NCBI GenBank assembly: GCA_021298655.1
Contig: JAJTFK010000008.1
Span: forward strand, 1 to 64,000
DNA: 64,000 nt
Direction: 5' to 3'
Source of the DNA: Cryomorphaceae bacterium
GTDB taxonomy: Bacteria > Bacteroidota > Bacteroidia > Flavobacteriales > Schleiferiaceae
Part shown: in pieces, positions 65 through 53,485 of the stretch
How positions within the stretch are numbered: position 1 is the stretch's first letter
How the letters are laid out: each line of letters starts with the position of its first letter
Translations under genes and position numbers: made by a program
The notes under the pieces: model-generated
Seen by the model: the letters and a program-made list of their open reading frames with translations, nothing else
Databases searched by the model: none
Told to the model about the DNA's origin: nothing

Positions 65-85
65 TAGCTGGTTTCTGGCTACCAG
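65..85. repeat. Heptad intergenic repeat array (3 units)
   Basis: Three 7-nt units, TAGCTGG, TTTCTGG and CTACCAG, lie directly after the stop codon of the partial gene. They match the degenerate heptad YWACYRG or its reverse complement, found at six other gene ends in this window. GTAGC at 64-68 and GCTAC at 78-82 could pair. Confidence 0.55.
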
Positions 86-5068: not shown

Positions 5069-5085
5069 TTACTGGTTGCTGGTTT
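5058..5085. repeat. Heptad intergenic repeat array (4 units)
   Basis: Four units CCGGTTA, CTAGTTA, CTGGTTG, CTGGTTT (reverse complements of the YWACYRG heptad). The CTAG at 5065-5068 holds the stop codons of both convergent genes, and the last codons of the M1 peptidase (PATSN) are read from the array. Confidence 0.75.
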
Positions 5086-16505: not shown

Positions 16506-16513
16506 CAAAGCTA
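16506..16513 (-). promoter_or_regulatory. -7 box TAGCTTTG of the agmatinase-family gene
   Basis: TAGCTTTG on the minus strand, 4 nt (CGGT) before the ATG. The upstream side runs straight into a nine-unit heptad repeat array, so the -33 region would be made of repeat sequence. Confidence 0.55.
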
Positions 16514-16573
16514 GCTTCTAGGTAGCAGTTACGGGTTGCTGGTTGCTGGTAACGAGTTACTAGTAACTGATTG
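16511..16573. repeat. Heptad intergenic repeat array (9 units)
   Basis: The longest heptad array: CTAGCTT, CTAGGTA, GCAGTTA, CGGGTTG, CTGGTTG, CTGGTAA, CGAGTTA, CTAGTAA, CTGATTG, each the reverse complement of a YWACYRG-like unit. It fills the gap between the lamin-tail gene and the agmatinase-family gene. The TAG stop and last residues (PISY) of the lamin-tail protein are read from it. Confidence 0.8.
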
Positions 16574-18848
16574 GAAAGGATCGCCGAAGCGGACCGCCCT
16601 CGCTCGGCGTGAAGCGGATCTCCCAAAGCCAAACGCCTCGGTGCGGGGGCTCGTCGCGGGCTTCCCACGCAGTTTGGGGCGGAACCGGAGCGGGATCGGA
16701 CCATTCCGTGGCCCATCGGCCCTCGGGGTCGGCCCAGCGGGTTTCGAGCAGCCAGGCTTGGTTCGGTTCCAAGTCCCACCCCAAGGCGGGAGGCCACCGG
16801 CGCTCCAGAAGGTACACGCGGCCCTGGGGTGCATTGCTGCGGGCTTCGGGCCAGCGGCCCGGGGTGGCGGAGTCTTCGCGGGCGATTCCCCAATCCTCGG
16901 GGCCCGGGCCGCGGCGTTCCAGCGACATACCCTCGCCCTTGCCCGGGGACTCCCGAACGGACGGAGGGAAGTGCTCTGGGCCCAGCCGAGCCACGTCGAG
17001 GAGCGCAGCGTCGGCCCGACGGAGTTCCAGCCGACCTCCTTCGTCGGAAATGGGCAAAGCCTGGTTGGTGGCGCCGGGGCCGCCCGGCACCGCCGGCCGG
17101 TCCCAGGCCCCGGGGCGCGGGGCGCCCCGGGGGCCCGCCGCCGAGTCGCCGCCCGGGTAGCGCTTCAGCAGGGCCGCGGGGTCGGCCCCCACGAAGACCA
17201 CCCCGCCCGGGAGCAAATACGAGCCGGCGACGGCGGCGCGGCGCCAAACCCCCGAATCGGCGGTCGCCCAAAAGAGTCCAGACAAGTCCACCACCCTTCC
17301 GCCCAGGTTGCGCAGCTCGGTAAAACGCCCCTCGCCCGGCAAGGGATTGAAGAGGACCTCGGAAATCTGAAGCTCGCCCGAATCCGGCGGTACCGGCCAT
17401 CCCGCGATCACCCGGGTGCAGTCGCCGGGGGTTCCGTCGGCGTGCATCCACCCCGAACGCAACGGGAGTTCCAGAACTTCGCCCGGAGCACAAGGCCAAC
17501 CCAAACCTGCGTTGTCGGAGGACCAAGTCAGCCGCGTCGCCTCCGAATGCAGGCGCTCGACCGACCAGCGCCCGCCCGGACGCCGAGGCAAACCGGCCGA
17601 ATCAAAGGGATACCACATGGAACCGCCTAAGGGCAGCGGGTGGCGCCAGTCCACGATCAATCCGCGGTCGGCCCGCAGTCCGAGGATTCCGCCCCGCCGG
17701 GGCTCCACCGGAGCGAACTCGATCCAGCCGGGGCTGGACCCTAATGCGCTGCGCGCGGACTGCCAGGCCCGCGGAAGCTCGGAACGATCCGGATCGGCCT
17801 CCAGCGACCAACCGCCCAGGGATTTTTCAGCGGGTTGGTGCATGTCGGGCTGGGTTCGGCCCCAAGCCACGACGGAATCCGAGGCGTCGCGCAGCGACCA
17901 AAAGGCCGGCGAAGCGCTGAGGGCCAGCGGGGCGTTCCAAACCCGAAGCGAATCGGGCCATGCCATTCGTTCGTCGGCCAGCACCACGATCTCGCCGGGA
18001 TAAAGCATCCGGTCGGGAAGGGTCCAGCGTCCGCTTCCGTGCCAAAAGGTCCAGCCGGAAGCCCAGCAGACCGAATCCGCGTTAACCCGCAATTCAACGA
18101 AGTCGCCCGGGGCCGAGCGCCAGGAAACCCTGGGTTCGGAGTCCACCAGGATTTCGGTCACCGCCACGTCGCCGCGCCGCGCCAAACGCCGAACCGGAAC
18201 CTTCCGAATTTCGGAAGCCGCGAATCGGTGGGGGCCCCAGCGAAGGCCGCGGACGCGGGTCGCCGTCACCGTGGCCCCCAGGCGGATTCGACCCAGGCTG
18301 GCCACCGACGAATCGGCGTTGCCCCAGGCGGCCCCGCTGTCGAGCACGGTTCCGAGCGTGTCGCGCAGCACCCATGCCACCCGGTGGCCGGCCAAGGAAT
18401 CCCAGGCCCAGGACCAATCCACCAGCGAGGCAGTACGGTCGAGCAGGCCGCTTGGGCTCGCGGCCAGCACAAGCCCGTCGGGAATCCGCAGGAGCCGAAG
18501 CTGGTCGTTGGTCCGGCCGAATTCGAGCCGGTAGCCCGCCGACGAACCAAAACCGGTCCAGGCCGTGGTGTCGAACAGCTCGGCAAAGGCGAAGTTGACC
18601 GACGACGGGTTAAAATCGAGGCGAATCCGCCCCGAGGCCACTGCGGGTCGCGCTCCGCGTCCGTCGCGCCACAGCGCATAGGTTCCCGCGCCCGGTGCGT
18701 TCAAGCGGAGCCCTTCGCCCGGCGCAAAGGCTGCCGTGTCGCCCCGCCATGCGCCCAGGCCCTGCGTCCATTCTTCGGTCCAAGGCCCCCACTGGGCGCG
18801 CAATCCCGAAACCAAAAGGGCAAAGCCCCAAACGAGTATCCTTTTCAT
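16560..18848 (-). CDS. Secreted lamin-tail-domain protein, extremely G+C-rich
   Basis: A 762-residue exported protein starting at MKRILVWGFALLVSGLRAQ (ATG at 18848; signal peptide). The first ~220 residues look like a beta-sandwich laminin-G/concanavalin-like region. Two lamin-tail (LTD)-like domains follow, with EILVDSEPRVSWRSAPGDFVELR at about 235-257 here split as EILVDSEPRVSW and GDFVELR, and ISEVLFNPLPGEGRFTELRNLGG later as ISEVLFNP and FTELRN. The pattern 'ITEIL/EVLFNP...FVEL' is diagnostic of LTD proteins in Bacteroidota. I see no convincing T9SS tail; the protein ends in repeat-encoded residues, so its C-terminus may be truncated. Composition is unusually rich in Arg, Gly, Pro, Trp and Ala. 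Divergent from asd. Confidence 0.8.
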   Translation of the reverse strand: MKRILVWGFALLVSGLRAQWGPWTEEWTQGLGAWRGDTAAFAPGEGLRLNAPGAGTYALWRDGRGARPAVASGRIRLDFNPSSVNFAFAELFDTTAWTGFGSSAGYRLEFGRTNDQLRLLRIPDGLVLAASPSGLLDRTASLVDWSWAWDSLAGHRVAWVLRDTLGTVLDSGAAWGNADSSVASLGRIRLGATVTATRVRGLRWGPHRFAASEIRKVPVRRLARRGDVAVTEILVDSEPRVSWRSAPGDFVELRVNADSVCWASGWTFWHGSGRWTLPDRMLYPGEIVVLADERMAWPDSLRVWNAPLALSASPAFWSLRDASDSVVAWGRTQPDMHQPAEKSLGGWSLEADPDRSELPRAWQSARSALGSSPGWIEFAPVEPRRGGILGLRADRGLIVDWRHPLPLGGSMWYPFDSAGLPRRPGGRWSVERLHSEATRLTWSSDNAGLGWPCAPGEVLELPLRSGWMHADGTPGDCTRVIAGWPVPPDSGELQISEVLFNPLPGEGRFTELRNLGGRVVDLSGLFWATADSGVWRRAAVAGSYLLPGGVVFVGADPAALLKRYPGGDSAAGPRGAPRPGAWDRPAVPGGPGATNQALPISDEGGRLELRRADAALLDVARLGPEHFPPSVRESPGKGEGMSLERRGPGPEDWGIAREDSATPGRWPEARSNAPQGRVYLLERRWPPALGWDLEPNQAWLLETRWADPEGRWATEWSDPAPVPPQTAWEARDEPPHRGVWLWEIRFTPSEGGPLRRSFPISY
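17108..17132. repeat. Perfect all-GC inverted repeat inside the lamin-tail gene
   Basis: CCCCGGGGCGC (17108-17118) and GCGCCCCGGGG (17122-17132) are perfect reverse complements separated by GGG. The 25-nt element lies in a Gly/Pro/Arg-rich coding segment and would form a very stable hairpin. Confidence 0.8.
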
Positions 18849-22393: not shown

Positions 22394-22993
22394 ATGCGTC
22401 GTCTTCTCCAATTTTGCTTTCTTAGCGCACTAGGCGCACTCACCGCCTGTGCCCAACCCAGTAAAAAATCTGCTCCCGTGACTCTTTTGCCCGCAACCCC
22501 AGCCCAGCCCGGTAACGAAACCCTCATTCTCGCCTCAGGCTGTTTTTGGGGCACCGAGTACTTTCTCAAGCGCATCGACGGCGTGGTCGCCACCACGGTA
22601 GGTTACACGGGCGGACACGTCGAAAACCCCAGCTACGAACAGGTTTGCACCAAAAAAACGGGTCACTACGAGGCCTGCCTGGTGGAGTACGACCCGACGC
22701 GCACCAATGCCGAAACCGTGCTGCGCATGTTTTTTGAGACCCACGATCCCACGCAGCGCAACGGCCAGGGCCCCGACATCGGTCCCCAGTACCGCAGCGC
22801 CGTTTTTTACCAAAACGAGGCCCAGCGCGAACTGGCCGCGTCCCTTGTGGCGCAGCTCCGTGCACGGGGCTACGACGTGGCCACCGAATTGCTTCCGGCA
22901 GCCCCGTTTTATTCGGCCGAAGGCTACCACCAAGACTACTACGACATTAAGGGCGGAACGCCCTACTGCCACGGCTACCGACCGTTGTTTTAG
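22394..22993 (+). CDS. msrA: Peptide-methionine (S)-S-oxide reductase, lipoprotein form
   Basis: MsrA reduces the S-epimer of methionine sulfoxide in proteins. The 199-residue product has the catalytic GCFWG motif with Cys50, GYTGGHVENPSYEQVC downstream, and the family's HQDYY near the C-terminus (GYHQDYYDIKGG). The N-terminus carries a signal peptide with a lipobox LTAC (Cys19), so this copy is exported and lipid-anchored and would repair envelope proteins. Its TAG stop is followed without a gap by a heptad repeat array. Confidence 0.95.
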   Translation: MRRLLQFCFLSALGALTACAQPSKKSAPVTLLPATPAQPGNETLILASGCFWGTEYFLKRIDGVVATTVGYTGGHVENPSYEQVCTKKTGHYEACLVEYDPTRTNAETVLRMFFETHDPTQRNGQGPDIGPQYRSAVFYQNEAQRELAASLVAQLRARGYDVATELLPAAPFYSAEGYHQDYYDIKGGTPYCHGYRPLF

Positions 22994-23035
22994 CAACCAG
23001 TAGCTAGTAACCCGTTGCTGGCTATTGGCTTTGGG
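22994..23035. repeat. Heptad intergenic repeat array (6 units)
   Basis: CAACCAG, TAGCTAG, TAACCCG, TTGCTGG, CTATTGG, CTTTGGG start at the base after the msrA stop codon. Units of both orientations occur, and AGCAAC (22992-22997) can pair with GTTGCT (23014-23019). Confidence 0.75.
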
Positions 23036-38319: not shown

Positions 38320-38353
38320 CCCAAGCGGGCGGTGTTCTGGCACGGTGCTTGAG

Positions 38354-38361
38354 TACCTTCG
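38354..38361 (+). promoter_or_regulatory. -7-like box TACCTTCG of the DUF5686 gene
   Basis: TACCTTCG with a 4-nt gap (CGCC) to the GTG at 38366. This geometry is the main reason for choosing that GTG as start. Confidence 0.55.
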
Positions 38362-38365
38362 CGCC

Positions 38366-40606
38366 GTGGTTCGGGTTCACATTCTGGGATTATTGCTGCT
38401 CATTCAGGCCGGTAGTGCCTGGGGTCAAGTCCGTTCCGATTCGCTTCGGAACATAGACCTCGACGCCGTGCTGGTGGTCGCGGAACCCATCGACAAAGCC
38501 TATGAGGTCCTTCGCGAGGCCGGGCGTCGCAACCAACCCCTACCCAGTTTTCAGTGCAGTACGGCGGTGAAGTCGAGCTACGGGGGCGGCTCCGGACTCC
38601 ACCTTCGCGAAGCCTTAAGTGTGAGCCTGTTCGCGGCCCCCGACCGATTCAGTGAGCGCATTTACCTGGCCGACGAGCACCAAGGCGGACGCAGCCTGAG
38701 CGATGGCCGAACCGCCGAAGTGCGGTTCAGCGTAGGGCGCGACGACGGCATCGTCCCCCAAGAGCGCGGGGCCGTGCTGGGCAAGCACTTTTTTGAATCC
38801 TACGCCGACGGGAACCTCGACCTTTACCGGAGTAGCATTGAGCTGCCGCGGCTTGCTACGGTACCCATTCCCTCCCCGCTGGCCTGGGATGCCGAGTTGC
38901 AGTACCGTGCGCGGGTGGTCCAGGCCGAGGCCAAGGGCAACGCGGTACACTGGACCGTCTCGGTCGCGCCGCGAACGGCTTCTGGAGCCCTGCTGCGCGG
39001 TACCCTGGTCATCGAAGACAGCGCCTACACGGTGGTCCGTGCCGACCTGGAGCTTCCCGCCCAAAGTCTGGTTCGCTACACGCAGGTTCGCGTGCAGCAG
39101 TCCTACCGGTTCGCGGCGGGGCGTTCGGTGGTTTCGGCGCGGAATTTCGAACTAATCGACGCGGCAGGCGACACGGCGCGCACCCAGATCCTGCACGACG
39201 AATACGATTTCAACGGCCAACTCCGACCCAAAGACCTCGGGCTTGCGGCCGTGGCCTACGACCAAAAGGCCTTCGACGCCAGCCCAACCGATTGGGCCGC
39301 CGCCCGCAAAATCGCCCTGGATCCGGGCGAATCGCGCCACATCACCTACCAAGACAGCCTGACCTTGTTCTACGATTCGGACAGCTACAAGGACAGTGTC
39401 GACGCCGTGTACAACAAATTTCACTGGTGGGAGCCCCTGGTTTCCGGGGTTGGATTCCGCTCCAGCAAAAAAGGGGTTGAGTGGTTTGTGCTTCCTGTAG
39501 TCGCCCAAATGCGCTTTTTTGGCGTCGGCGGCTACCGCCACAACCTGGGCGGAAGCTTTGCGCGGACGTTTCCGGACCGCCGCCGTCTGGACGTGGAAGG
39601 CAACCTCGACTACGGCGTGGTCAACCGAGACGTCCGCGGCGATCTGAGCTTGAGCTACCTCTACAATCCGCGCAACTTTGGCCTGCTGCGGGTCGAGCTG
39701 GGCGACAACTACACGTTTGTCAACACCTACGAACCCATCTTGGGCACCTTTGCCCGCGGAAACTACGTGCGAAAAACGTTTTTTCAGGGTTCGCACCGAA
39801 TGGAGCTGACCAACGGACTGTACCTGCGGACGTCCTTTGATTTTTCGCGCCGCGAGGCCATAACCGGGCTCAAGCTCGAGGACTGGTCCAACCAGCTGTT
39901 TGGCGAACTCAACGACCCCACGCCGTTTAGAACCTACACGATTGCCTTGGTAGGCGCCGACCTGAGCTACACCCCCGGGCAGCGCTACGTCATGAAGGGG
40001 CCGCGCAAAATTGCGCTTGGCAGCACCTGGCCGACCTTTACGCTGCAGGCCAAGCAGGGCATTCCCGGCCTGCTCGGAGGCATGGTGAACTTCACGTCGC
40101 TCCGACTCAACGCCAAGGACTTCCGGCAGTCGCGCTTTTGGGGCACCACGAATTGGAACCTCGGCGTCGGCACCTTCCTCGCCAAGGAACTGGACTCGAT
40201 TCGCTTCATTGAGCACCGCTTTTTTCGGGGGTCGGACCAGCTGCTGCTCAGCAACCCCACGGCCAGCATGCAGGCCCTGGACTCGACCTACCACACCGCG
40301 CGTCCCTGGGCCGAGGCCTATTTTATTCACCACTTTGACCGCTCCCTGCTCGACCGCGTGCCCCTGGTTCGCGCCCTGCATCTGGTGCCGGTGGTGGGGG
40401 GCGGAATGCTGTACGTCGCCGAGGCCAAGGTTTTTCACGCCGAAGTGTACGGCGGACTCGAGCTGCCCTTCCGACTGTGGGACCAGCGCATGCGCGTTGG
40501 CGCCTACCGCGTTTGGACCGACCAAGGAAATCCGGTTATTCCCGGATTTCGGCTCAAGCTCGGGGTTGATTTTTACGACAGCTACCAAGGCCGATGGTCG
40601 TATTAA
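38366..40606 (+). CDS. DUF5686-family outer-membrane protein
   Basis: A 746-residue beta-barrel protein of the DUF5686 family common in Bacteroidota; function unknown. The GTG start gives a signal peptide (VVRVHILGLLLLIQAGSAWGQ read from fMet) and follows a -7 box by 4 nt; upstream in-frame codons belong to the end of the Nudix gene. Most family members have an N-terminal CarboxypepD_reg-like domain, which is missing here. The barrel part (from about 330) contains the repeated aromatic strand pattern and ends FYDSYQGRWSY. The TAA stop is the first three bases of a heptad array. Confidence 0.82.
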   Translation: MVRVHILGLLLLIQAGSAWGQVRSDSLRNIDLDAVLVVAEPIDKAYEVLREAGRRNQPLPSFQCSTAVKSSYGGGSGLHLREALSVSLFAAPDRFSERIYLADEHQGGRSLSDGRTAEVRFSVGRDDGIVPQERGAVLGKHFFESYADGNLDLYRSSIELPRLATVPIPSPLAWDAELQYRARVVQAEAKGNAVHWTVSVAPRTASGALLRGTLVIEDSAYTVVRADLELPAQSLVRYTQVRVQQSYRFAAGRSVVSARNFELIDAAGDTARTQILHDEYDFNGQLRPKDLGLAAVAYDQKAFDASPTDWAAARKIALDPGESRHITYQDSLTLFYDSDSYKDSVDAVYNKFHWWEPLVSGVGFRSSKKGVEWFVLPVVAQMRFFGVGGYRHNLGGSFARTFPDRRRLDVEGNLDYGVVNRDVRGDLSLSYLYNPRNFGLLRVELGDNYTFVNTYEPILGTFARGNYVRKTFFQGSHRMELTNGLYLRTSFDFSRREAITGLKLEDWSNQLFGELNDPTPFRTYTIALVGADLSYTPGQRYVMKGPRKIALGSTWPTFTLQAKQGIPGLLGGMVNFTSLRLNAKDFRQSRFWGTTNWNLGVGTFLAKELDSIRFIEHRFFRGSDQLLLSNPTASMQALDSTYHTARPWAEAYFIHHFDRSLLDRVPLVRALHLVPVVGGGMLYVAEAKVFHAEVYGGLELPFRLWDQRMRVGAYRVWTDQGNPVIPGFRLKLGVDFYDSYQGRWSY

Positions 40607-40638
40607 CCCGTAACAAGTAACCAGTAACCAGCAACCAA
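40604..40638. repeat. Heptad intergenic repeat array (5 units)
   Basis: TAACCCG, TAACAAG, TAACCAG, TAACCAG, CAACCAA in register from the stop codon of the DUF5686 gene, ending 5 nt before the M61 ATG. The clearest example of the unit (consensus TAACCAG). Confidence 0.85.
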
Positions 40639-40643
40639 GCAAT

Positions 40644-42509
40644 ATGATTCGTTCCTTCTTTTTTGCCGCCCTCGCGCTGGCTGCGACGGCCAAGGCCCAG
40701 TCCGTTTACCGAGTTGACCTCACGGCCGACGGAGCCACTGTGGCGCACACGGGCTTTGCGGCCCCCGACGCGAACCCAGCTGACGGGTTTTCGGCGACCT
40801 ACCACCTGCCCAAGACGGTGCCCGGCACCTACGCCACCCTCGACTACGGGCGGTACGTGACGGACTTTACGGCCACAGACGCCCAAGGCAAGGCCTTGAA
40901 GGTCAAAAAAATGGGGAACAACAGCTGGAAGGTCAGCGGCACCTCAGCCCCCGTCGCCGTGCGCTACAGCGTGGCCAGTATCATGGAGCTCGAAGTCAAA
41001 AAGAACAAGATTTTTGAGCCCGCGAGCACCTTCCACGACGACCAAAAAGGTTCCGTGCTGAACGGCGGCGGCGTGTACGGATTCTGGACCGGCCAAGAGC
41101 GCGGATCGGTGCGCGTAGACCTGGGCACCCCGGCCGGATGGTTCGCGGCTACTTCGCTCGATGGCGAAGCGGGCAACGGACGCACCCTACTGCGCGCCGA
41201 CAGCTACCACGCGCTGCTCGACAACCCCGTGCTGCTGACCAAGCCGGACACGGCCGGATTTTGGGTTGCCAACACCCGCGTGACCATTGCGGTCCTGGAC
41301 CTCAACGGAACCCCACGCGCAGCGGACTTCAAGCGCGAGCTCGAGGCCGATATGGCCGCGGTCGCGCGCTTCCTGCCCCAGCTGCCGGTGGACCGCTACA
41401 CCTTTTTGACGATGGTGGGCGACTTCCGTTGGGCCGGCGACATTTTGTTCAGCGGAAAACCCAGCCTTGGCGGCATCATCAAGGTGGCCAAATCCTTGGG
41501 GAGCCAAGGTTTTGGCGCGCTGGAGCACAATACCTCGTCGGTGTACTACCTCGGCGACTTTGGAACCGGCGAGCGCATGCCCAAGGAGCTCCGCGTCGAA
41601 AAGCAGCTTCTGGACGCCGCCGTTCACGAGTTCATGCACATCATCACGCCGCTGGGCCTGCATGCCCCGGCGATCCACGACTTTGACTACGCCAATCCCA
41701 GCATGAGCCAGCACCTCTGGCTCTACGAGGGCGTGACCGAGTACTTTGCGCAACTGATTCGCTACCAGGGCGGACGCCTCAGCGAAAAGGAGTACCTCGA
41801 CGCGATGCGCGGCAAAATCGTTCAGGGCGAGAAGTTTCCCAACAGCAAGTTCAGCTTCACCGAAATGTCGCGAAACGTGCTCGACAAGCCCTACAAAGAC
41901 GCCTACCTGCACGTGTACGACCGCGGAGCCGTGATGGCCTGGCTGATCGACGCCCGGATTCGCGGTGCGCACGAAGGCCAGAAGTCCCTGATCGACGTCA
42001 TTATGGCGCTGCACACGCAGTACGGTCCGAGCCGCCCCTTCGACGAGGCCGGGTTCTTTGACGCCTTCTGCGAAGTGGCCGAAACCCCGGGGCTGCGCGA
42101 GTTTTTTGCGCGCCACGTCGAAGGCCGGGAGCCGCTTCCCTACGCCGAGGCCCTGAAGCTCGTCGGCCTGGACTACGCCGCAGAGGGCAGCGAAGTAAAA
42201 ACGCTCAACCCGGTTGAAGCGGGTAAAAACGACCTAAAGGTTTCGGTCGAAAACATGGGGATGACCCGTGTGGTGAAAAAGGTAGGGCCCAACGAGTGGG
42301 CCGGGCTCAAGGTGGGCGACGAAGTTTCGATGACGGAATTGGTCGCGGCCCGAAACGAGGCGGTCGACGGAGTCATGAAGTTGCCCGTCACCCGCGGCAG
42401 CGAGCGCGTGGTGCTCGACGTTCCGGTCAAAACCGAAACCGTGGCACGCCCGCACCACCTCAAGGTGGCCAACGACGCGCTTTGGAAGGGCTTTAGCACA
42501 AGGCCGTAG
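40644..42509 (+). CDS. M61-family (glycyl aminopeptidase-like) metallopeptidase with PDZ domain
   Basis: A 621-residue exported peptidase (signal MIRSFFFAALALAATAKAQ). An N-terminal beta domain (about 20-190) is followed by the gluzincin catalytic domain with HEFMH at 328-332 and the third ligand in WLYEGVTEYFAQ about 27 residues later. Residues about 515-600 form a PDZ-like domain (GMTRVVKKVGPNEWAGLKVGDEV as GPNEWAGLKVGDEV). Typical family length. A promoter is not obvious because the upstream region is a heptad array; co-transcription with the DUF5686 gene is likely. The TAG stop starts another heptad array. Confidence 0.92.
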   Translation: MIRSFFFAALALAATAKAQSVYRVDLTADGATVAHTGFAAPDANPADGFSATYHLPKTVPGTYATLDYGRYVTDFTATDAQGKALKVKKMGNNSWKVSGTSAPVAVRYSVASIMELEVKKNKIFEPASTFHDDQKGSVLNGGGVYGFWTGQERGSVRVDLGTPAGWFAATSLDGEAGNGRTLLRADSYHALLDNPVLLTKPDTAGFWVANTRVTIAVLDLNGTPRAADFKRELEADMAAVARFLPQLPVDRYTFLTMVGDFRWAGDILFSGKPSLGGIIKVAKSLGSQGFGALEHNTSSVYYLGDFGTGERMPKELRVEKQLLDAAVHEFMHIITPLGLHAPAIHDFDYANPSMSQHLWLYEGVTEYFAQLIRYQGGRLSEKEYLDAMRGKIVQGEKFPNSKFSFTEMSRNVLDKPYKDAYLHVYDRGAVMAWLIDARIRGAHEGQKSLIDVIMALHTQYGPSRPFDEAGFFDAFCEVAETPGLREFFARHVEGREPLPYAEALKLVGLDYAAEGSEVKTLNPVEAGKNDLKVSVENMGMTRVVKKVGPNEWAGLKVGDEVSMTELVAARNEAVDGVMKLPVTRGSERVVLDVPVKTETVARPHHLKVANDALWKGFSTRP

Positions 42510-42541
42510 CGAGCAACCAGTTACTAGCAACTAGTTACTGG
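42507..42541. repeat. Heptad intergenic repeat array (5 units)
   Basis: TAGCGAG, CAACCAG, TTACTAG, CAACTAG, TTACTGG from the stop codon of the M61 gene. The following CTAG carries the stop of the convergent gene at 42542. Confidence 0.85.
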
Positions 42542-44626
42542 CTAGGCCCATACCACCTTCTCGACCTTGGCCGCCAGGCCGTGCACCAAGTCGTGGTAGA
42601 AGGCCTCAACCTGATTGCGCTTGATTTTCAAACTGGGCGTGATGAAGCCGTTGTCGATTTCCCAGCGCTCTCGGACCACGATGAGCTGAGCAATCCGCTC
42701 GTGCTGGGGTAGTTCGCGGTTCACGGATTCCAGCAGCTGCTGCAGGCGGTGTTCGACCGCCTCGCGGGCTTGAGTCAGGGCATGCTCGGTCAGCACCGCC
42801 AGCGCCACGGGCTGCGGAAGGTTAACGCCAAACAAGCAAACCTGCTCGACTTCGTCGGCCTCCATGATGCGGCCCTCGATGGGCGCGGGGGCCACGTACT
42901 TGCCCTTGGCGGTCTTGAAGATGTCTTTGATGCGGCCGGTGATAAACAGGTAGCCGTCGGCGTCAAAGCGTCCAACGTCGCCGGTGTGCAGCGCGCCGCC
43001 GCGAAAGAGCTCGGCGGTCAGCTCGGGTTCGCGGTAGTAGCCCAGCGTGTTGGTCGGGCTTTCAAGCAAAATTTCGTCGCCGTCGCCCAAAAAGACGCGG
43101 GTTCCGCTAAACGGCTGGCCGACGCTGCCCACGCGCACCTTGCCGCGGAAGTTGACCGTCGTGATGCCCAGGTTTTCGGTCATGCCGTACACCTCTTGAA
43201 TCACGATGCCCAGCGACGCGAACTCGTCGATCAGGCTGGCGCGAATGGGGGCCGCCCCGCTGAGCACGAGCCGCGCCCGCGACAGGCCGAGCTTCTTGCG
43301 CAGCACCGGGGCCAGGGCCCGGCGGAGCCAGGCCGCAGGCAGCTTTCGGTGCAGGTTTTCGGCGAACTTTTCCCAGATGCGCGGAACCGCCAAAAAGACG
43401 GTCGGCTGCGCCCGCTCCAGGTCCGCCGCAAACGTTTCAAGCGACTGCACAAAGTGTACCCTGCCCGTTAGGTAGACGCCGGCAGCCGAAATAATCATGC
43501 GCTCCGCCACGTGGCACAGCGGCAGGTAGCTCAAAAACACCTCTTGGTGCAGGAAGTCAAACTGCGTTAAAATGATGCGAAACGCTTCCTGGAAGTTGCG
43601 GTAGCTGTGCATCACGCCCTTCGGCATTCCGGTGGTGCCCGAGGTGTAAATGACCGTCATCAGGTCGTCGGCGTGCAGCGTCGGCAGCGCCGCGTCGGGG
43701 TCACCGAGCGCGCAGACTTCGTCCCAGCTTCGATCGCCCTCCAGCTGGTGGTCGGGCGTGGTCACCACCTCGATTCCGTGCGGAACGCAGTCCCGGTAGC
43801 GCGCGACGTCGTCGAGCTTGCCCAGCACCACCACTTTGGACTCGGAGTGCTCGAGCACCGCCCGCGCGGTGGGCGCATCAATCGTCGGATAAATGGGCAC
43901 CGAGACCGCTCCGGCCAGCGAAACCCCGTAGTCGTATATCAGCCAGTGGGCCGAATTCTTGCCGATCAGCGCCACCCGATCCCCCGGTTTTACGCCCAGC
44001 GCGTAGAGTCCGCGGGCAAATCGCGCCGCCTCGGCGTAGGCCTCGGCATTGGTAAACTGAATGCGTCCGCCTTCGACGGGCTGGTCCAAAAACAAGCGGT
44101 GCGGAAACGTTTGGGCGTTCCACGCCAGCTGCTCGGGCATCAATCGGCTCGCGCGGTCGGGCGTCAGGTGCTGCAGGCCCTTTTCGGGCACAAATCCTTC
44201 GAGCGGACCCAGAATTTCGAGCACCCGCGCGTCGGTCGCCTCTTTGGTGTCGAGCGGCATGATGGGCGCACTGATGCTCACCACCTTGCGGCCCGCGTCG
44301 ATGCCCAACACCACAATCGGAACCCCCGCCGCCTTGGCGATTTCGTAGTAGCCGCTGCGCAGCGCGTCCACCTTAGCCCGCGTCCCCTCGGGAGCCAGGG
44401 CGAGGCAAAAATTTGGATCGTTTTTAAAATGCTCGACGACTTGGCCTACCACGCCGCCTGCCGCGTGCTGGTCAACCGGAATTCCGCCCAATTGGCGCAA
44501 AAACCAGCCCTGAATGCCGCGGAACAGCGGTTTTTTGCCCAAAACATGCAGGTGGTGCAGCCCGAGGTCCTCGCGAATGCAGAGTCCGGCCCAAAAATCC
44601 TTGCTGTGGGTAAAGCTCCATTTCAT
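42542..44626 (-). CDS. Acyltransferase/AMP-dependent acyl-CoA(ACP) synthetase fusion (Aas-like)
   Basis: A 694-residue two-domain enzyme. Residues 1-145 are a PlsC-type glycerophospholipid acyltransferase domain (KKPLFRGIQGWFLRQLGGIPVD, seen as LFRGIQGWFLRQLGGIPVD, and APEGTR at 78-83). Residues about 165-694 are an AMP-forming long-chain acyl-CoA synthetase with YTSGTTGMPKG at 327-337, YGMTENLG and TGRIKDIFKTAKGKYVAPAP. The order recalls E. coli Aas, which re-acylates lysophospholipids. The HX4D motif of block I is not intact (FTHSKDFWAG where HxxxxDF is expected), and the protein starts right there. A TATCTTGG box 4 nt before the ATG argues the start is real. Activity of the first half is uncertain. 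Confidence 0.87.
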   Translation of the reverse strand: MKWSFTHSKDFWAGLCIREDLGLHHLHVLGKKPLFRGIQGWFLRQLGGIPVDQHAAGGVVGQVVEHFKNDPNFCLALAPEGTRAKVDALRSGYYEIAKAAGVPIVVLGIDAGRKVVSISAPIMPLDTKEATDARVLEILGPLEGFVPEKGLQHLTPDRASRLMPEQLAWNAQTFPHRLFLDQPVEGGRIQFTNAEAYAEAARFARGLYALGVKPGDRVALIGKNSAHWLIYDYGVSLAGAVSVPIYPTIDAPTARAVLEHSESKVVVLGKLDDVARYRDCVPHGIEVVTTPDHQLEGDRSWDEVCALGDPDAALPTLHADDLMTVIYTSGTTGMPKGVMHSYRNFQEAFRIILTQFDFLHQEVFLSYLPLCHVAERMIISAAGVYLTGRVHFVQSLETFAADLERAQPTVFLAVPRIWEKFAENLHRKLPAAWLRRALAPVLRKKLGLSRARLVLSGAAPIRASLIDEFASLGIVIQEVYGMTENLGITTVNFRGKVRVGSVGQPFSGTRVFLGDGDEILLESPTNTLGYYREPELTAELFRGGALHTGDVGRFDADGYLFITGRIKDIFKTAKGKYVAPAPIEGRIMEADEVEQVCLFGVNLPQPVALAVLTEHALTQAREAVEHRLQQLLESVNRELPQHERIAQLIVVRERWEIDNGFITPSLKIKRNQVEAFYHDLVHGLAAKVEKVVWA

Positions 44627-44703: not shown

Positions 44704-45630
44704 ATGATTAAAACGGCAAGTATTCTTGGCCTAACCCTACTTGGCGCCGTCGCTTGGTCCTGGTTCTACAGCCCCGAACTCGAACCGCTTCAACGGCAAC
44801 TCCTTGACAACCTGATCACTATATGGGCCGGATTCACCGCCTACACCTTCGTCGCCGGAGTCCTCACCAGCAACCACAGCCAAGTGGACCGACTTTGGAG
44901 CACCGTGCCCATCGTCTACGCCGTATACGCCGCCTGGTTTACCCAATGGGACCCCCGCGCCACCTTGATGGCCGGGCTCGTCGGCCTTTGGGGTGCGCGC
45001 CTCACCTTCAACTTTGCGCGCCGCGGAGGCTACAGCTGGCTCCCCTGGAAGGGCGAAGAAGACTACCGCTGGGAAGTCCTGCGCCGCATGCCGCCCCTCG
45101 ATAAACCCTGGGTTTGGCAGCTCTTTCACCTGCTCTTCATCTGCGTCTACCAAATGGGCCTGATCCTGCTCTTCACCCTGCCCATCGCCTACGCCTGGCG
45201 CCCGAGTGCCGGACCCAGCGTGCTCGGCAGCGCTGACCTCCTCTTAGCCCTGCTCATGATCGCCCTCATCGCACTTGAATTCGTGGCCGACCAGCAGCAG
45301 TGGACCTTTCAGCGCGAAAAGCACCGCCGCCGCGCCGCCGGCGAAGACCTCGGACCCGTCTACGGCAAAGGCTTTGTGCACACCGGCCTCTGGGGCCTGT
45401 CGCGCCACCCAAACTACGCCTGCGAACAGTCCATCTGGGTCGTATTCTACCTCTTCACTGGGGCCGCCACCGGCGAATGGCTCAACGCCAGCATCGTCGG
45501 CTGCATCCTGCTCATCCTCCTCTTTCACGGAAGCGCCAACTTCAGCGAAGGCATCAGCGCCGGCAAGTACCCGGACTACGCAGACTACCAAAAGCGCGTG
45601 GCGCGCTTCCTGCCGGGGCTCAAAGGCTAG
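44704..45630 (+). CDS. DUF1295-family (steroid 5-alpha-reductase-like) membrane protein
   Basis: A 308-residue integral membrane protein with about seven hydrophobic segments. Conserved C-terminal features LGLSRHPNY-type (here WGLSRHPNYACEQSIW) and KYPDYADYQKRVARFLP define the DUF1295/ICMT-like family, whose members reduce or methylate lipid-like substrates; the actual substrate is unknown. It is divergent from the acyl-CoA synthetase fusion, which suggests, weakly, a lipid role. Its TAG stop lies in the first unit of an octad array. Confidence 0.88.
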   Translation: MIKTASILGLTLLGAVAWSWFYSPELEPLQRQLLDNLITIWAGFTAYTFVAGVLTSNHSQVDRLWSTVPIVYAVYAAWFTQWDPRATLMAGLVGLWGARLTFNFARRGGYSWLPWKGEEDYRWEVLRRMPPLDKPWVWQLFHLLFICVYQMGLILLFTLPIAYAWRPSAGPSVLGSADLLLALLMIALIALEFVADQQQWTFQREKHRRRAAGEDLGPVYGKGFVHTGLWGLSRHPNYACEQSIWVVFYLFTGAATGEWLNASIVGCILLILLFHGSANFSEGISAGKYPDYADYQKRVARFLPGLKG

Positions 45631-45680
45631 GTGGCTGGTTGGCTAGGTGGCTGGTTAGCTAGGTGGCTGGTTAGCCAGCC
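45625..45680. repeat. Octad intergenic repeat array (7 units)
   Basis: GGCTAGGT, GGCTGGTT, GGCTAGGT, GGCTGGTT, AGCTAGGT, GGCTGGTT, AGCCAGCC: an 8-nt period with a 16-nt super-period. It contains the stop codons of the DUF1295 gene (TAG 45628-45630) and of the convergent glycosyltransferase (TAA, 45655-45657), and codes for the latter's last residues NQPPS. Confidence 0.9.
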
Positions 45681-46545
45681 AGAATTCCTTGAACTTTGTT
45701 CGATAGGGCTTAAAGCGCTCATCTTCCGTTTTTACCTGACTGCACGCAATAATGTTCTGATCGAAGCTAAAGTCTGAATCAGCATACCCAAAAGCGACCT
45801 GCCGTCTATTGCGCTTTAGTTCAAAAAACTCCTCTGTTCGAAAGTAATAGTGATTAAGGAAGCCGCTGGCCTTCGATGGTCGCGCGCCACCATAAAGCAA
45901 AGGTTCATGTGGTCCGAATTGAAAAGAGAAAAACCGATCGCACCTGAAGAACGATTTATATTGAGCATGGGGAGGATATTTTTCTTCTGCTCTGCCTAAA
46001 GAGGCTAAAATCAACGACTTCGTGGCATTAAACGATTCGGGATCTGCTGGACCATAAAACTGCCAATAAAGTCGAACACTTGAATGCTCTTCTACTAAAT
46101 GACTTTCTAAGAAATCCCCTACGGAGTAAAATCCGTCAAAAAAAACAAACTCATCGGTGTCGATTAAGGCTAACCATTTAAAATCGGCCATGAATTTTTT
46201 AACGTATTCATTAAAAAGTGCAACCTGAGTCTGTACCCCACTAAATGGTGTACAATCATGAATTAATGTCACACGAATTCGCACACTTTCAGGAAGATAT
46301 GAATAATCGCCACACACTTCATTATTGTCAATGAGCACAATATGGTCAACCTCTGCCACGAACAAATGGTAAATTAACCATTCGGCTAGGTACTTTTCCT
46401 CGCCCTTAGTAAACGTCAACAAACCGGTATGAAACTTCGGCAAATTATTGGTCCGCGGAATCCTAATCCAATTTGCAAGAAGCAAATAGAGTTGCAGGGC
46501 TTTTAACCACCCCCCCCCCGCTTTAATTAGTCTAGAATAACTCAT
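45655..46545 (-). CDS. Glycosyltransferase (GT2/GT92-like) with in-frame poly-G tract
   Basis: A 296-residue probable glycosyltransferase of the 'glycosyl transferase family 92/DUF23-like' group. The motif IDTDEF at 128-133 would bind metal and nucleotide sugar, and LLTFTKGEEKYLAEWLIYHL (first part LLTFTKGEEKYLAEW, 42-56) is characteristic of the group. No signal peptide. The gene is clearly A+T-richer than all neighbours and uses AAA/TTT/ATT codons, a sign of recent transfer. Codons 9-12 contain a run of ten G, so slippage could switch the gene on and off. Sugar and acceptor are unknown; a surface glycan or O-glycan is likely. Confidence 0.8.
   Translation of the reverse strand: MSYSRLIKAGGGWLKALQLYLLLANWIRIPRTNNLPKFHTGLLTFTKGEEKYLAEWLIYHLFVAEVDHIVLIDNNEVCGDYSYLPESVRIRVTLIHDCTPFSGVQTQVALFNEYVKKFMADFKWLALIDTDEFVFFDGFYSVGDFLESHLVEEHSSVRLYWQFYGPADPESFNATKSLILASLGRAEEKYPPHAQYKSFFRCDRFFSFQFGPHEPLLYGGARPSKASGFLNHYYFRTEEFFELKRNRRQVAFGYADSDFSFDQNIIACSQVKTEDERFKPYRTKFKEFWLANQPPS
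46510..46519 (-). repeat. Homopolymer of ten G near the start of the glycosyltransferase
   Basis: Ten C on the plus strand, ten G in the coding strand at codons 9-12 (Ala-Gly-Gly-Gly). In this window I noticed no other homopolymer of this length. A change of one or two bases would frameshift the gene after residue 12. Confidence 0.85.
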
Positions 46546-46717: not shown

Positions 46718-48031
46718 ATGAAAAGCCACTCCAACACCCTCAAGGCCGCTGTAATTGGTGCCTTAGCTCTGATTTTGCTCATTCCCGCAGCCTTGGTCCA
46801 GGAAGTTGTGGATGAACGGTCCGCGCTCGCCGAAGAGGTGCAAACGGAACTTGGCGAACAGTGGGGGCGTCCCCAAACCGTCGTGGGGCCCTACCTCGTG
46901 GTGCCCTACCGATACTCCGCTTCTGAAACATCCAGCAGCGGCCGCAGCAGCAAGACCATCCGCACCGGATACCTGCACATTCTACCCGAAAAATTGACGG
47001 TCAACGGGCGAATTGAGCCCGAAGTCCGTCGGCGCGGAATCTTTGATGCCGTCGTCTACGCGACCCACCTCAGCATGTCGGCCCGCTTTCGCAAGCCCAA
47101 CCTGAACGAGCTCGGCATCGACCCGAGTTCCGTCTCGTGGTCCCTGGCCACCCTGAACTTGGGCATCAGCGACGCGCGCGGACTCAAGGGAACGTCCAGT
47201 GTACGCTGGAACGGCACCAAAATCTCCCTCGCCTCGGGATTGGCAAGCGACAACCTCGCCGAGCAAGGGGTGCGCGCCCCGGTAAACGTAGACGGCAACC
47301 TGAGCGTTGAGGTCGACCTCGACCTCCTGGGGAACGGCGGATTTTGGGTGGCCCCCACGGGCTCTACAACCGACGTAACCATGACCTCGCCCTGGACGTC
47401 GCCGAGCTTTAGCGGTGCCTTTCTGCCCGACAAGCACGACCTTACCTCAGAGGGCTTTCACGCCACCTGGACCGTCAACCACCTCAACCGCTCCTACGGC
47501 GAGGTGCTCCAAGAAGGCGATTTTCAAGACTTAGTCAGACAATCTGCGCTCGGCGTCGACCTCATTCAGCCGGTGGGGCACTACCAAAAAGCCCACCGCG
47601 CCGGCCGCTACGCCATTCTGTTCATCGGCCTGTCCTTTGTCACCTTCTTTTTGATGGAAGTCCTCAACCGACTGCGCATTCACCCCATTCAGTACGCTTT
47701 GGTCGGAATCGCGCTGGTACTCTTCTACTCGCTGCTGCTTTCCATCTCGGAGCACGTCGGATTTAACTGGGCCTACGTGGCCGCGGCTACGGCCACCGTG
47801 TCGTTGGTCACGGCGTATTCGGCCACCGTGCTTAAGGCCCGCAAACTGAGCGCCGGAGTCGGAACCCTTTTGACGGTCCTGTACGTGTTCTTATTTGTCG
47901 TGATCCAGCTCGAAGACTACGCCCTCCTCGTCGGAAGCCTTGGCCTCTTTGCCGTCGTCGCCGCCGTCATGTACTTCAGCCGAAACGTAAACTGGTACGA
48001 CAATCCAAGTCCCGGCGAACAAACTAACTAA
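46718..48031 (+). CDS. creD: CreD-family inner-membrane protein
   Basis: A 437-residue membrane protein of the CreD (cell envelope integrity) family: an N-terminal helix (KAAVIGALALILLIPAALVQ), a ~270-residue periplasmic domain with the conserved RSALAEEVQTELGEQWG-type opening (RSALAEE...GRPQTVVGPYLVVPY), and five C-terminal helices. In gamma-proteobacteria creD is induced by CreBC; no such regulators are here. The ATG at 46718 is preferred over an in-frame ATG-like start 10 codons upstream because MKSHSNTLK matches the family's start. The stop TAA and last codons lie at the beginning of an octad array. Confidence 0.9.
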   Translation: MKSHSNTLKAAVIGALALILLIPAALVQEVVDERSALAEEVQTELGEQWGRPQTVVGPYLVVPYRYSASETSSSGRSSKTIRTGYLHILPEKLTVNGRIEPEVRRRGIFDAVVYATHLSMSARFRKPNLNELGIDPSSVSWSLATLNLGISDARGLKGTSSVRWNGTKISLASGLASDNLAEQGVRAPVNVDGNLSVEVDLDLLGNGGFWVAPTGSTTDVTMTSPWTSPSFSGAFLPDKHDLTSEGFHATWTVNHLNRSYGEVLQEGDFQDLVRQSALGVDLIQPVGHYQKAHRAGRYAILFIGLSFVTFFLMEVLNRLRIHPIQYALVGIALVLFYSLLLSISEHVGFNWAYVAAATATVSLVTAYSATVLKARKLSAGVGTLLTVLYVFLFVVIQLEDYALLVGSLGLFAVVAAVMYFSRNVNWYDNPSPGEQTN

Positions 48032-48061
48032 CTAACCAACTAGCCAACTAGCTAACCAGCC
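48022..48061. repeat. Octad intergenic repeat array (5 units)
   Basis: AACTAACT, AACTAACC, AACTAGCC, AACTAGCT, AACCAGCC between the convergent creD and sbtA-like genes. Stop codons of both genes (TAA 48029-48031; TAG on the minus strand at 48048-48050) and the last residues of the permease (WLVS) come from it. Confidence 0.9.
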
Positions 48062-48986
48062 AATAATACCACGGAATCCCCAGCGTCATGTTGACCGGGA
48101 AGGTCAACGCAAGCGCCATGGGCAGGTACACTCCGGGGTTGGCCTCAGGCAGGGCGATGCGCATGGCTGCAGGGACTGCGATGTAGCTGGCGCTGGCCGC
48201 CAGCACGCTCAGCACAAAGCGGGCTTCCGCTGGGGCCCCGGTGACGCTGGAAATCAGGGCCATAAGCGTTCCGTTGACCAAGGGAAGCAGCAGCGCCAGG
48301 GCAAAGGGCTGCCAGCCGGCGGCGAGTAGGGCTTTGATGTTGCGTCCGCTGGACAAGCCCATGTCAAGCAGGAAGACGGCCAAAAAGCCCTTAAACAGGT
48401 CGTTGGTGAAGGGACGAATGCCCTCGGCCTGTACGTCGTCGGTCAGGAATCCGACCAAGAGGCTTCCGAGAACGAGGACCACCGAGCCGTTGGTCAGGGC
48501 GTGGCGCAGCCAAGAATTCGTTCCGCCCGAAGCCCCGGCCCGGCGCGCCAACCAGAGGCCCACGACGATGGCCGGTGCCTCCATGAAGGCCATGACGGCC
48601 ACCATGTAGCCCGGAAGGTGCAGGCCGAGGCGCTCAAGGAAGGTGCCGGCGGCCACAAACGTTACGGCGCTCACCGACCCGTAGGCGGCGGCGACGGCTC
48701 CGGCGTTGGCCACCCCGAGGGAGCGCTTGGCAATCCAAAACACGTAGACCGGAATCAGCACCGACGAGGCGAGGGCCAGGAACAGCACCGCGGTACTGTC
48801 GGGCCGAAGGGCTTCGTGGGCCAGCTCTTGTCCGCCTCGAAACCCGATCGACAAGAGCAGGTAGATCGAAATGAACTTCGACGAGGTTCCGGGAAGCTCC
48901 AGGTCGCTCCGAATGAGGGCCGCAGCAATTCCGAGCAAAAAGAAGAGCAGCGCAGGGCTGGTGAAGTTTTCAAGCAGTAGGCTCAT
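48048..48986 (-). CDS. Sodium-dependent bicarbonate transport family permease (SbtA-like)
   Basis: A 312-residue inner-membrane protein with about ten helices, related to SbtA/DUF897 permeases that import bicarbonate with sodium in cyanobacteria. Typical features are the two inverted five-helix halves, FLLGIAAALIRSDLELP near 20-36, and LLSIGFRGGQEL near 49-60. Start ATG at 48986 overlaps the dihydroorotase stop (ATGA). With the SulP/carbonic anhydrase pair 8 kb away it points to active inorganic-carbon supply. A divergent LysR gene lies upstream of the operon. Confidence 0.88.
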   Translation of the reverse strand: MSLLLENFTSPALLFFLLGIAAALIRSDLELPGTSSKFISIYLLLSIGFRGGQELAHEALRPDSTAVLFLALASSVLIPVYVFWIAKRSLGVANAGAVAAAYGSVSAVTFVAAGTFLERLGLHLPGYMVAVMAFMEAPAIVVGLWLARRAGASGGTNSWLRHALTNGSVVLVLGSLLVGFLTDDVQAEGIRPFTNDLFKGFLAVFLLDMGLSSGRNIKALLAAGWQPFALALLLPLVNGTLMALISSVTGAPAEARFVLSVLAASASYIAVPAAMRIALPEANPGVYLPMALALTFPVNMTLGIPWYYWLVS

Positions 48987-52249: not shown

Positions 52250-52323
<74 letters not shown>

Positions 52324-52401: not shown

Positions 52402-53448
52402 ATGACTGAAGAACACGAATACCTCCTGGCCCTGCGCCTCCTCGAAGCGGAGCACAAGCAACCCCTGAACTGGCTCCGCCAAATCGCCCCGACGTTTGCC
52501 GCGTTTCAGCAAGAATCGCAGCAGATTCCGAGCCGTTGGAACAAGACGGTGCTCCACCAGCTGCACGAGGTTCGCCGCACGGTGCAGCAGCACGCGGACC
52601 ACGGGATTCGCTGCATCCCGATTGAGTCGCCCGACTATCCGTCCCGGCTTGCGCATTCCAGCGACCCGCCGCCGCTGCTGTTTGTTCGCGGATCCCTTGG
52701 CGAGAGCGACCGGGTGCTCGCGGTGGTCGGTACGCGATCGCCCACACCCGATGGGTTGCTCCACACCGAGTTTTGGGTGCACGCGCTCGGGGCGGCCCAG
52801 CCCACGATCGTCAGCGGGCTGGCTTTGGGCATCGACGCGGCCGCCCACGGCGAGGCCTTGCGGTCGGGGCTTCCGACCTGGGCGGTGCTGGCCCACGGCC
52901 TCGACGCCGCGCAGCCGCGCGCCAACGCGCGGCTCGCCGAGCGCATCCTCCTGTCCGGGGGGGCATGGATTTCTGAGTGGCCTTTTGGGGTTCCCGCCCG
53001 AGCAAGCAATTTTCCGCGCCGAAACCGCATCATTGCTGGCCTTAGCGACGCGGTGCTCGTGGTCGAAGCGTCCGTGCAAAGCGGCGCATCCATCACCGCC
53101 AAGCTGGCCCATGGCTACGACCGCAGCGTTTTTGCCCTGCCGGGAAGGGTACACGACGTACACAGCCAGGGCTGCCTGAGCTTGATTGCCGACCAAGTCG
53201 CCCAAATGGCCCTACATCCCGACCAAGTTTTGGCTCACCTCAACTGGTCTGTCCGAAGCCCGAGCGAAGCCGGTGATCCGCTAAAGGGCCACCTCGCGGC
53301 CGTCCTGAACGCCCTTCAGGGCCCCTGCCGGGTTGACGAGCTCCAGCGCGCGACCGGGCTAAGCACCGAGCATGTGCTTTCGGCACTGGCCGAACTCGTA
53401 TGGACCGGCCGAGCCGTTGCGCGAGCCGGCGCCTACCACAAACGCTGA
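52402..53448 (+). CDS. dprA: DNA-processing protein DprA
   Basis: A 348-residue protein that binds incoming single-stranded DNA and loads RecA during natural transformation. The Rossmann-like DprA core (about 100-275) shows VVGTRSPTPDGL, SGLALGIDAAAH, FPRRNRIIAGLSDAVLVVEA (part: FPRRNRIIAGLS) and SGASITAKLA. The C-terminal ~60 residues form the DprA winged helix (LNALQGPCRVDELQRATG region). The ATG at 52402 is chosen; the same frame runs back through the antisense of the tRNA and is not coding there. Confidence 0.95.
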   Translation: MTEEHEYLLALRLLEAEHKQPLNWLRQIAPTFAAFQQESQQIPSRWNKTVLHQLHEVRRTVQQHADHGIRCIPIESPDYPSRLAHSSDPPPLLFVRGSLGESDRVLAVVGTRSPTPDGLLHTEFWVHALGAAQPTIVSGLALGIDAAAHGEALRSGLPTWAVLAHGLDAAQPRANARLAERILLSGGAWISEWPFGVPARASNFPRRNRIIAGLSDAVLVVEASVQSGASITAKLAHGYDRSVFALPGRVHDVHSQGCLSLIADQVAQMALHPDQVLAHLNWSVRSPSEAGDPLKGHLAAVLNALQGPCRVDELQRATGLSTEHVLSALAELVWTGRAVARAGAYHKR

Positions 53449-53464
53449 ATTAGCCAGAAACATG

Positions 53465-53485
53465 TAACTCGTTACTGGTAACTGG
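53465..53485. repeat. Heptad intergenic repeat array (3 units)
   Basis: TAACTCG, TTACTGG, TAACTGG, 16 nt after the dprA stop and just before the terminator hairpin of the convergent operon. Confidence 0.7.

Follow-up and report, generated by a model that had tools for sequence, protein, structure and literature searches.

How a tandem repeat can persist in a very compact bacterial genome, and why its arrays should be met where genes end, is the question raised by the DNA stretch analysed here. This stretch, called the window, covers 64,000 nt (G000:C29:1-64000) of a 1.60 Mb genome in 45 contigs (G000, hereafter the own genome). Its G+C content is 61%, and it encodes SusC/RagA and a T9SS sorting domain, both marks of Bacteroidota. 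Our gene-calling script, which was trained on the fetched stretches, placed 44 genes in the window with about 94% coding, and missed one ORF at 45655-46545 (-).

Degenerate heptad arrays in the window

A preliminary description had listed seven arrays of 7-nt units fitting YWACYRG, confined to gene 3' ends and never inside a gene. Here, an array was called from three YWACYRG units with at most one mismatch, followed by extension. Six of the seven pass this strict rule, while the array at 65-85 fails it and is marginal. No array arose in 100 dinucleotide shuffles of the window or in 300 of its intergenic part; the shuffle check proposed earlier thus favours the family, and the period of 7 kept by degenerate units is real. 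Genome-wide, the array pattern gave 114 matches compared with 0 for the reversed control, far above chance.

YWACYRG turned out to combine two kinds of unit, YAACYAG in the forward sense (F) and its reverse complement TTRCTRG (R). Both share one 7-nt register because CYRG, as a degenerate pattern, is its own reverse complement, and the AACNAG cores lie mainly 7 nt and rarely 8 nt apart. The W position and the transitions at fixed positions that were noted earlier mostly reflect the mixing of F and R units. The six arrays that pass the rule, the marginal one and two related arrays of longer period are as follows.

5041-5085 (unstranded): 7-nt array of mixed orientation, FFFRRR, spanning the overlapping convergent 3' ends of 2891-5068 (+) and 5065-6918 (-), with both stops inside
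16511-16573 (-): 7-nt array of nine units filling the gap between tandem minus-strand genes, with the stop of 16560-18848 inside
22990-23024 (unstranded): 7-nt array with the TAG stop of 22487-22993 inside; the relative G010 has an array at the same place
40604-40638 (+): forward-only 7-nt array of five units, whose first letters are the TAA stop of 38345-40606; 5 nt separate its end from the ATG of 40644-42509
42503-42544 (unstranded): 7-nt array of mixed orientation between the convergent genes 40644-42509 (+) and 42542-44626 (-), with both stops inside
53465-53485 (+): short 7-nt array of three units, 16 nt past the TGA of 52402-53448
65-85 (-): marginal array lying between the TAA at 61-63 and a hairpin that resembles an intrinsic terminator
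45625-45675 (-): sister 8/16-nt array (AACCAGCC / ACCTAGCC) with two stops inside, TAG for 44704-45630 (+) and TAA for the ORF 45655-46545 (-)
48018-48063 (+): sister array of 8-nt units (AACTAGCC) across the 3' ends of the convergent genes 46718-48031 (+) and 48048-48986 (-)

The last two had been overlooked before. Rfam models matched only the tRNA at 52250-52323 in the window, and no known RNA family at the arrays. CTAG is scarce in the window: trinucleotides predict about 93 occurrences and there are 37, of which 8 fall inside the 241 nt of arrays. By eye, AACYAG singletons showed no visible excess in the window, and a reading as DNA-uptake sequences was considered and set aside.

Neighbouring units agree with each other at 4.94 of 7 positions, compared with 4.84 between arrays (p 0.135), and the near-identical units within an array that are expected of heptanucleotide tandem repeats were not found. 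Between orthologous arrays, C4 and G7 were substituted at 3 of 72 positions and the four degenerate positions at 25 of 144, as counted in ten gap-free array pairs that were picked and aligned by hand.

Placement on stop codons, orientation and RNA structure

Existence, placement, stop-codon supply, turnover, leuS invasion and strand-specific structure of the arrays were all computed. The statistics are exploratory and not pre-planned, the RNA structures are predicted and the gene calls are our own. The arrays of the own genome were found by search and read in stretches, so that the resulting sample of 46 arrays placed in the fetched stretches is array-centred.

Forty-one of these 46 arrays are not gene-internal, though most of them reach the last codons of genes, so that the family lies predominantly outside coding sequence, as intergenic heptanucleotide repeats do. 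The other five lie in frame inside three genes (leuS, mutS and one short ORF). The claim that no array is inside a gene was therefore wrong; even in the window, the array at 5041-5085 lies almost wholly within genes, where two convergent ones overlap at their 3' ends, and further arrays hold the stop and last codons of a gene.

Both neighbours are known for 38 non-genic arrays, which occupy 20 convergent, 18 tandem and no divergent junctions. The 164 array-free junctions of the same stretches comprise 15 convergent, 121 tandem and 28 divergent ones, which makes convergent junctions strongly enriched (Fisher p 1e-8) and divergent junctions depleted (p 0.003) among arrays. The convergent bias was found again in the relative G020 (15/28, p 2e-7). 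The proposed confinement to gene 3' ends agrees with the lack of divergent placements among these 38, but it is not strict, since one array of G020 is divergent and, in two relatives, the divergent junction that is orthologous to 44626|44704 contains an array.

That arrays start close to or at a stop codon, as stated earlier, is correct but says too little. At 47 of the 51 gene ends touched by arrays, the stop codon lies within the array itself, as TAG in 33 cases, TAA in 14 and TGA in none. Other genes in the same stretches end with TGA in 62 of 169 cases (Fisher p 7e-6). Furthermore, within 27 nt past the stop of the gene, 1.74 of the three frames are closed at arrays in the own genome compared with 0.73 at other gene ends, and 2.0 compared with 0.88 in G020.

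Among tandem arrays located less than 15 nt before the next start, a cut-off of our own choice, 12 of 14 are mainly forward. Their predicted energy on the transcribed strand is -4.2 kcal per 35 nt, compared with -10.8 for longer gaps (p 1.6e-4); the opposite strand lacks this contrast (p 0.32), and the contrast is present in the own genome and in G020 separately. We take the forward, open arrays near starts as a sign of selection that keeps the start region open, as translation in general would lead one to expect. At stops, the own genome shows a real forward bias (35 F to 6 R), while G020 has 17 to 14; since the bias was not repeated in G020, a gene-directed unit orientation was dropped as a general property.

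The predicted RNA hairpins of the arrays are not stronger than those of column-permuted arrays, and selection for hairpins as a general property was rejected. Canonical terminators are few at gene ends with or without arrays, and the arrays neither clearly replace nor accompany them; the idea of replacement gave no clear signal. Neither comparison gave clear backing to transcript-end formation, one of the roles first suggested for the arrays.

Turnover among relatives and arrays inside leuS and mutS

A 17-nt pattern was found in 8 other species of the genus. No other sampled genus of the family has it, and beyond the family it recurs here and there, in further families of the order and in many phyla. 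Where a copy of the window's peptidase gene was found in array-bearing species, protein identity was 84-89%, compared with at most 44% in array-free members. Clean YAACYAG arrays were seen in many phyla, with cases in Chryseobacterium, Bacteroidales, Chloroflexi, Omnitrophota, Acidobacteria, Planctomycetes, Clostridium and others (L058-L137).

At the junctions of G010 orthologous to 30 arrays, about half of the arrays are kept, some nearly base for base, and the kept arrays include indels of 7 or 28 nt relative to the own genome, which are changes of unit size. At the other half or so of these junctions, G010 has either no array or a different repeat in its place, namely 8-nt AACGAGCC arrays, CCGGTTATAACCGG palindromes or hairpin arrays. 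The junction orthologous to the array at 53465-53485 is about 10 nt long and array-free in G010, G001 and G019. At two contig ends (L032 in C35 and L033 in C36), a single convergent junction is present in two diverged versions. Each version has its own array, and the arrays differ at degenerate positions only; the two look like alleles and are probably strain variants that broke the assembly.

Three kinds of other repeats were observed at gene ends of the relatives. The 8-nt arrays (AACGAGCC / GGCTCGTT) stand where the own genome has 7-nt arrays (G010 L209, L215, L199, L210, L221 and L224; G001 L181 and L183). A repeated palindrome, AAATCCGGTTATAACCGGATTTTACTTTTTCTC, which is often paired, occurs in G010 (L220, L219, L212), G001 (L183) and G017 (L189). 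G+C-rich tandem hairpin arrays (GGGCTGCTTCGCAGCTAG..., CGCGAAGCGC..., GCGCGCTTCC...) are present in G010 (L218, L215), G020 (L180), G006 (L187) and G007 (L193).

In the own genome, in-frame repeats lie within two conserved proteins.

L036:3083-3203 (G000:C39): leuS loop array, an in-frame repeat insert
L031:3031-3079 (G000:C31): mutS linker array, an in-frame heptad array

Between fixed motifs, the LeuRS loop before the editing domain counts 75 residues in the own genome and 108 in G001, compared with 41-67 in most other species of the subclade, 26 in G007 and 23-24 in the rest of the genus. It is filled by 7-nt arrays in the own genome, G020, G019, G017 and G004, and by 8-nt arrays in G010 and G001, while it is short and without repeats in G007 and the rest of the genus. 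In MutS, the in-frame array occupies the linker before domain V in the own genome, G010 and G020.

A probable invasive repeat family and its alternatives

Our preferred explanation, to which we give a probability of about 0.6, is that one invasive, fast-turnover tandem-repeat family survives where translation tolerates its arrays. This family, with its AACNAG core every 7 nt (occasionally 8) and its F and R units in one register, would have been acquired, or have expanded, in a single subclade of the genus, slippage or short-repeat recombination being the presumed generator. Arrays would grow and shrink by whole units and would repeatedly be lost or replaced by other short repeats. An array reaching a gene end would close the frame within a few codons, because its units carry TAA and TAG and its period is not a multiple of 3. 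Convergent gene ends would then be a favoured niche, both genes being able to stop inside the array. Stop-free versions may survive in frame in protein loops, and arrays beside a following start would be kept forward and weakly structured. Selection, acting as a filter, would in this way be the cause of array placement.

The selfish, slippage-driven element suggested at first fits best among the roles considered, given the gain and loss of whole 7-nt units, the changes of presence between relatives and the in-frame invasion of leuS. As the leuS and mutS arrays lie inside conserved proteins, far from 3' ends, and empty and filled leuS loops can be compared, the family appears to spread and then to be filtered. 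These copies are the strongest argument for reading the 3' ends as a refuge of the arrays and not as their purpose. Several points count against an invasive family. Fresh local slippage alone does not predict that neighbouring and non-neighbouring units are equally alike, the scarce change at C4 and G7 gives a weak hint of constraint on the consensus, and no mobilising enzyme is known. The forward bias at stops also fails to recur in G020, and the 15-nt limit behind the near-start contrast was set by us.

Short heptamers (STRR) of heterocystous cyanobacteria occur at many loci as fairly clean arrays, and to our knowledge neither overlap with stop codons nor a mixed register has been described for them. 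The present arrays share heptanucleotide units and many loci with STRR and long simple sequence repeats (LSSR). The LSSR have been reviewed (PMC4679880), and the same work describes TAACTGA heptamer direct repeats in marine Beggiatoaceae, Cyanobacteria and some Bacteroidetes (MacGregor 2015, PMC4679880). Like the present arrays, the TAACTGA repeats are intergenic 7-nt tandem arrays with stops in all forward frames, some over gene ends, and they share a sporadic phylogeny, indels in 7-nt steps and strain-specific gain and loss (PMC4679880). Their units, however, are nearly invariant, one-directional and mostly just upstream of starts (PMC4679880), unlike the degenerate units described here, which occur in both orientations in one register. 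The present arrays also contain the stop codon, are commonest at convergent ends and have spread into leuS and mutS. The arrays are no TAACTGA repeats, their unit being YAACYAG plus its reverse complement and sitting on stops, with only the near-start subset forward. The preliminary view that such a family was undescribed needs correcting, as intergenic heptanucleotide arrays were already known (PMC4679880); for YAACYAG arrays themselves, no description was found in a literature search that covered few subscription journals, and this one paper is the direct analogue. Since the uniform, one-directional, pre-start TAACTGA units do not match and both REP/RAYT and Rfam fail, we file the arrays as a new variant of intergenic heptamer repeats. 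They belong with TAACTGA repeats and cyanobacterial STRR, but as a distinct and odd variant.

This kinship leads to the first alternative, that the arrays are ordinary drifted heptamer microsatellites of the STRR/LSSR type with nothing else special about them. Sporadic arrays of YAACYAG heptamers, longer and cleaner than the present ones, do occur in other phyla and families and in G037, and the indels are unit-sized. In G037 and in most of the stretches read from other phyla, however, arrays are clean and for the most part run in one direction, unlike those of this clade, and G037 has the stop inside the array at only 2 of 5 nearby gene ends. As neighbouring units also show no extra similarity, we consider this explanation rather unlikely.

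A function of the arrays at 3' ends is possible. They would act as bidirectional stop modules that close every frame and contribute to the formation or protection of RNA 3' ends, especially where genes converge, which accords with the convergent bias and the supply of stops. Mixed units fold into predicted hairpins at convergent and terminal sites, operon-like arrays are weakly structured on the transcribed strand, and array position is kept at several junctions though the sequence turns over. Against such a role, the energies are no better than those of column-permuted arrays, forward-only arrays fold weakly or not at all and canonical terminators bear no clear relation to the arrays. Since about half of the arrays are lost or replaced in the close relative G010 and the same repeats occur inside leuS and mutS, a 3'-end element seems rather improbable as the general explanation.

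At longer odds, a dedicated process in the subclade might write or exchange arrays. It would place units of one consensus, in either orientation and fixed register, at stops, in one leuS loop and in one mutS linker, and would swap 7-nt arrays for 8-nt or other repeats on site. If true, it would account for units being no closer to their neighbours than to members of other arrays. The same lack of local similarity despite a common consensus, together with the low rate of change at C4 and G7, would suit a protein binding site, in which AACNAG every 7 nt is read in DNA or RNA and selection keeps the degenerate consensus; RNA-binding proteins were proposed by MacGregor for the TAACTGA repeats (PMC4679880). 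This is quite doubtful: no candidate binder was identified, the arrays turn over fast, a binder would have to accept either orientation and a spacing of 7 or 8 nt, and leuS and mutS contain arrays as well. REP-type palindromes moved by a RAYT transposase (REP/BIME elements; PMC2817692, PMC3733652) resemble the arrays as short, many-copy extragenic repeats, often of alternating orientation and at convergent ends, but can be dismissed with near certainty, since the arrays have period 7 without a fixed 20-40 nt palindrome and no RAYT gene (Y1_Tnp, PF01797) was found in 22 genomes of the genus, compared with 5 positives among 14 control genomes.

An invasive family filtered by translation would show how tandem repeats manage to live in a genome as compact as this one, in which about 94% of the examined stretches is coding: by providing the genes that they touch with stop codons. 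Translation would then act as a filter on the position, orientation and structure of arrays. The orthologous series, above all the leuS loop that is empty, filled with 7-nt units or filled with 8-nt units in sister species, would be a natural experiment on how heptamer repeats spread, a question that has stood since the cyanobacterial and Beggiatoaceae repeats were described.
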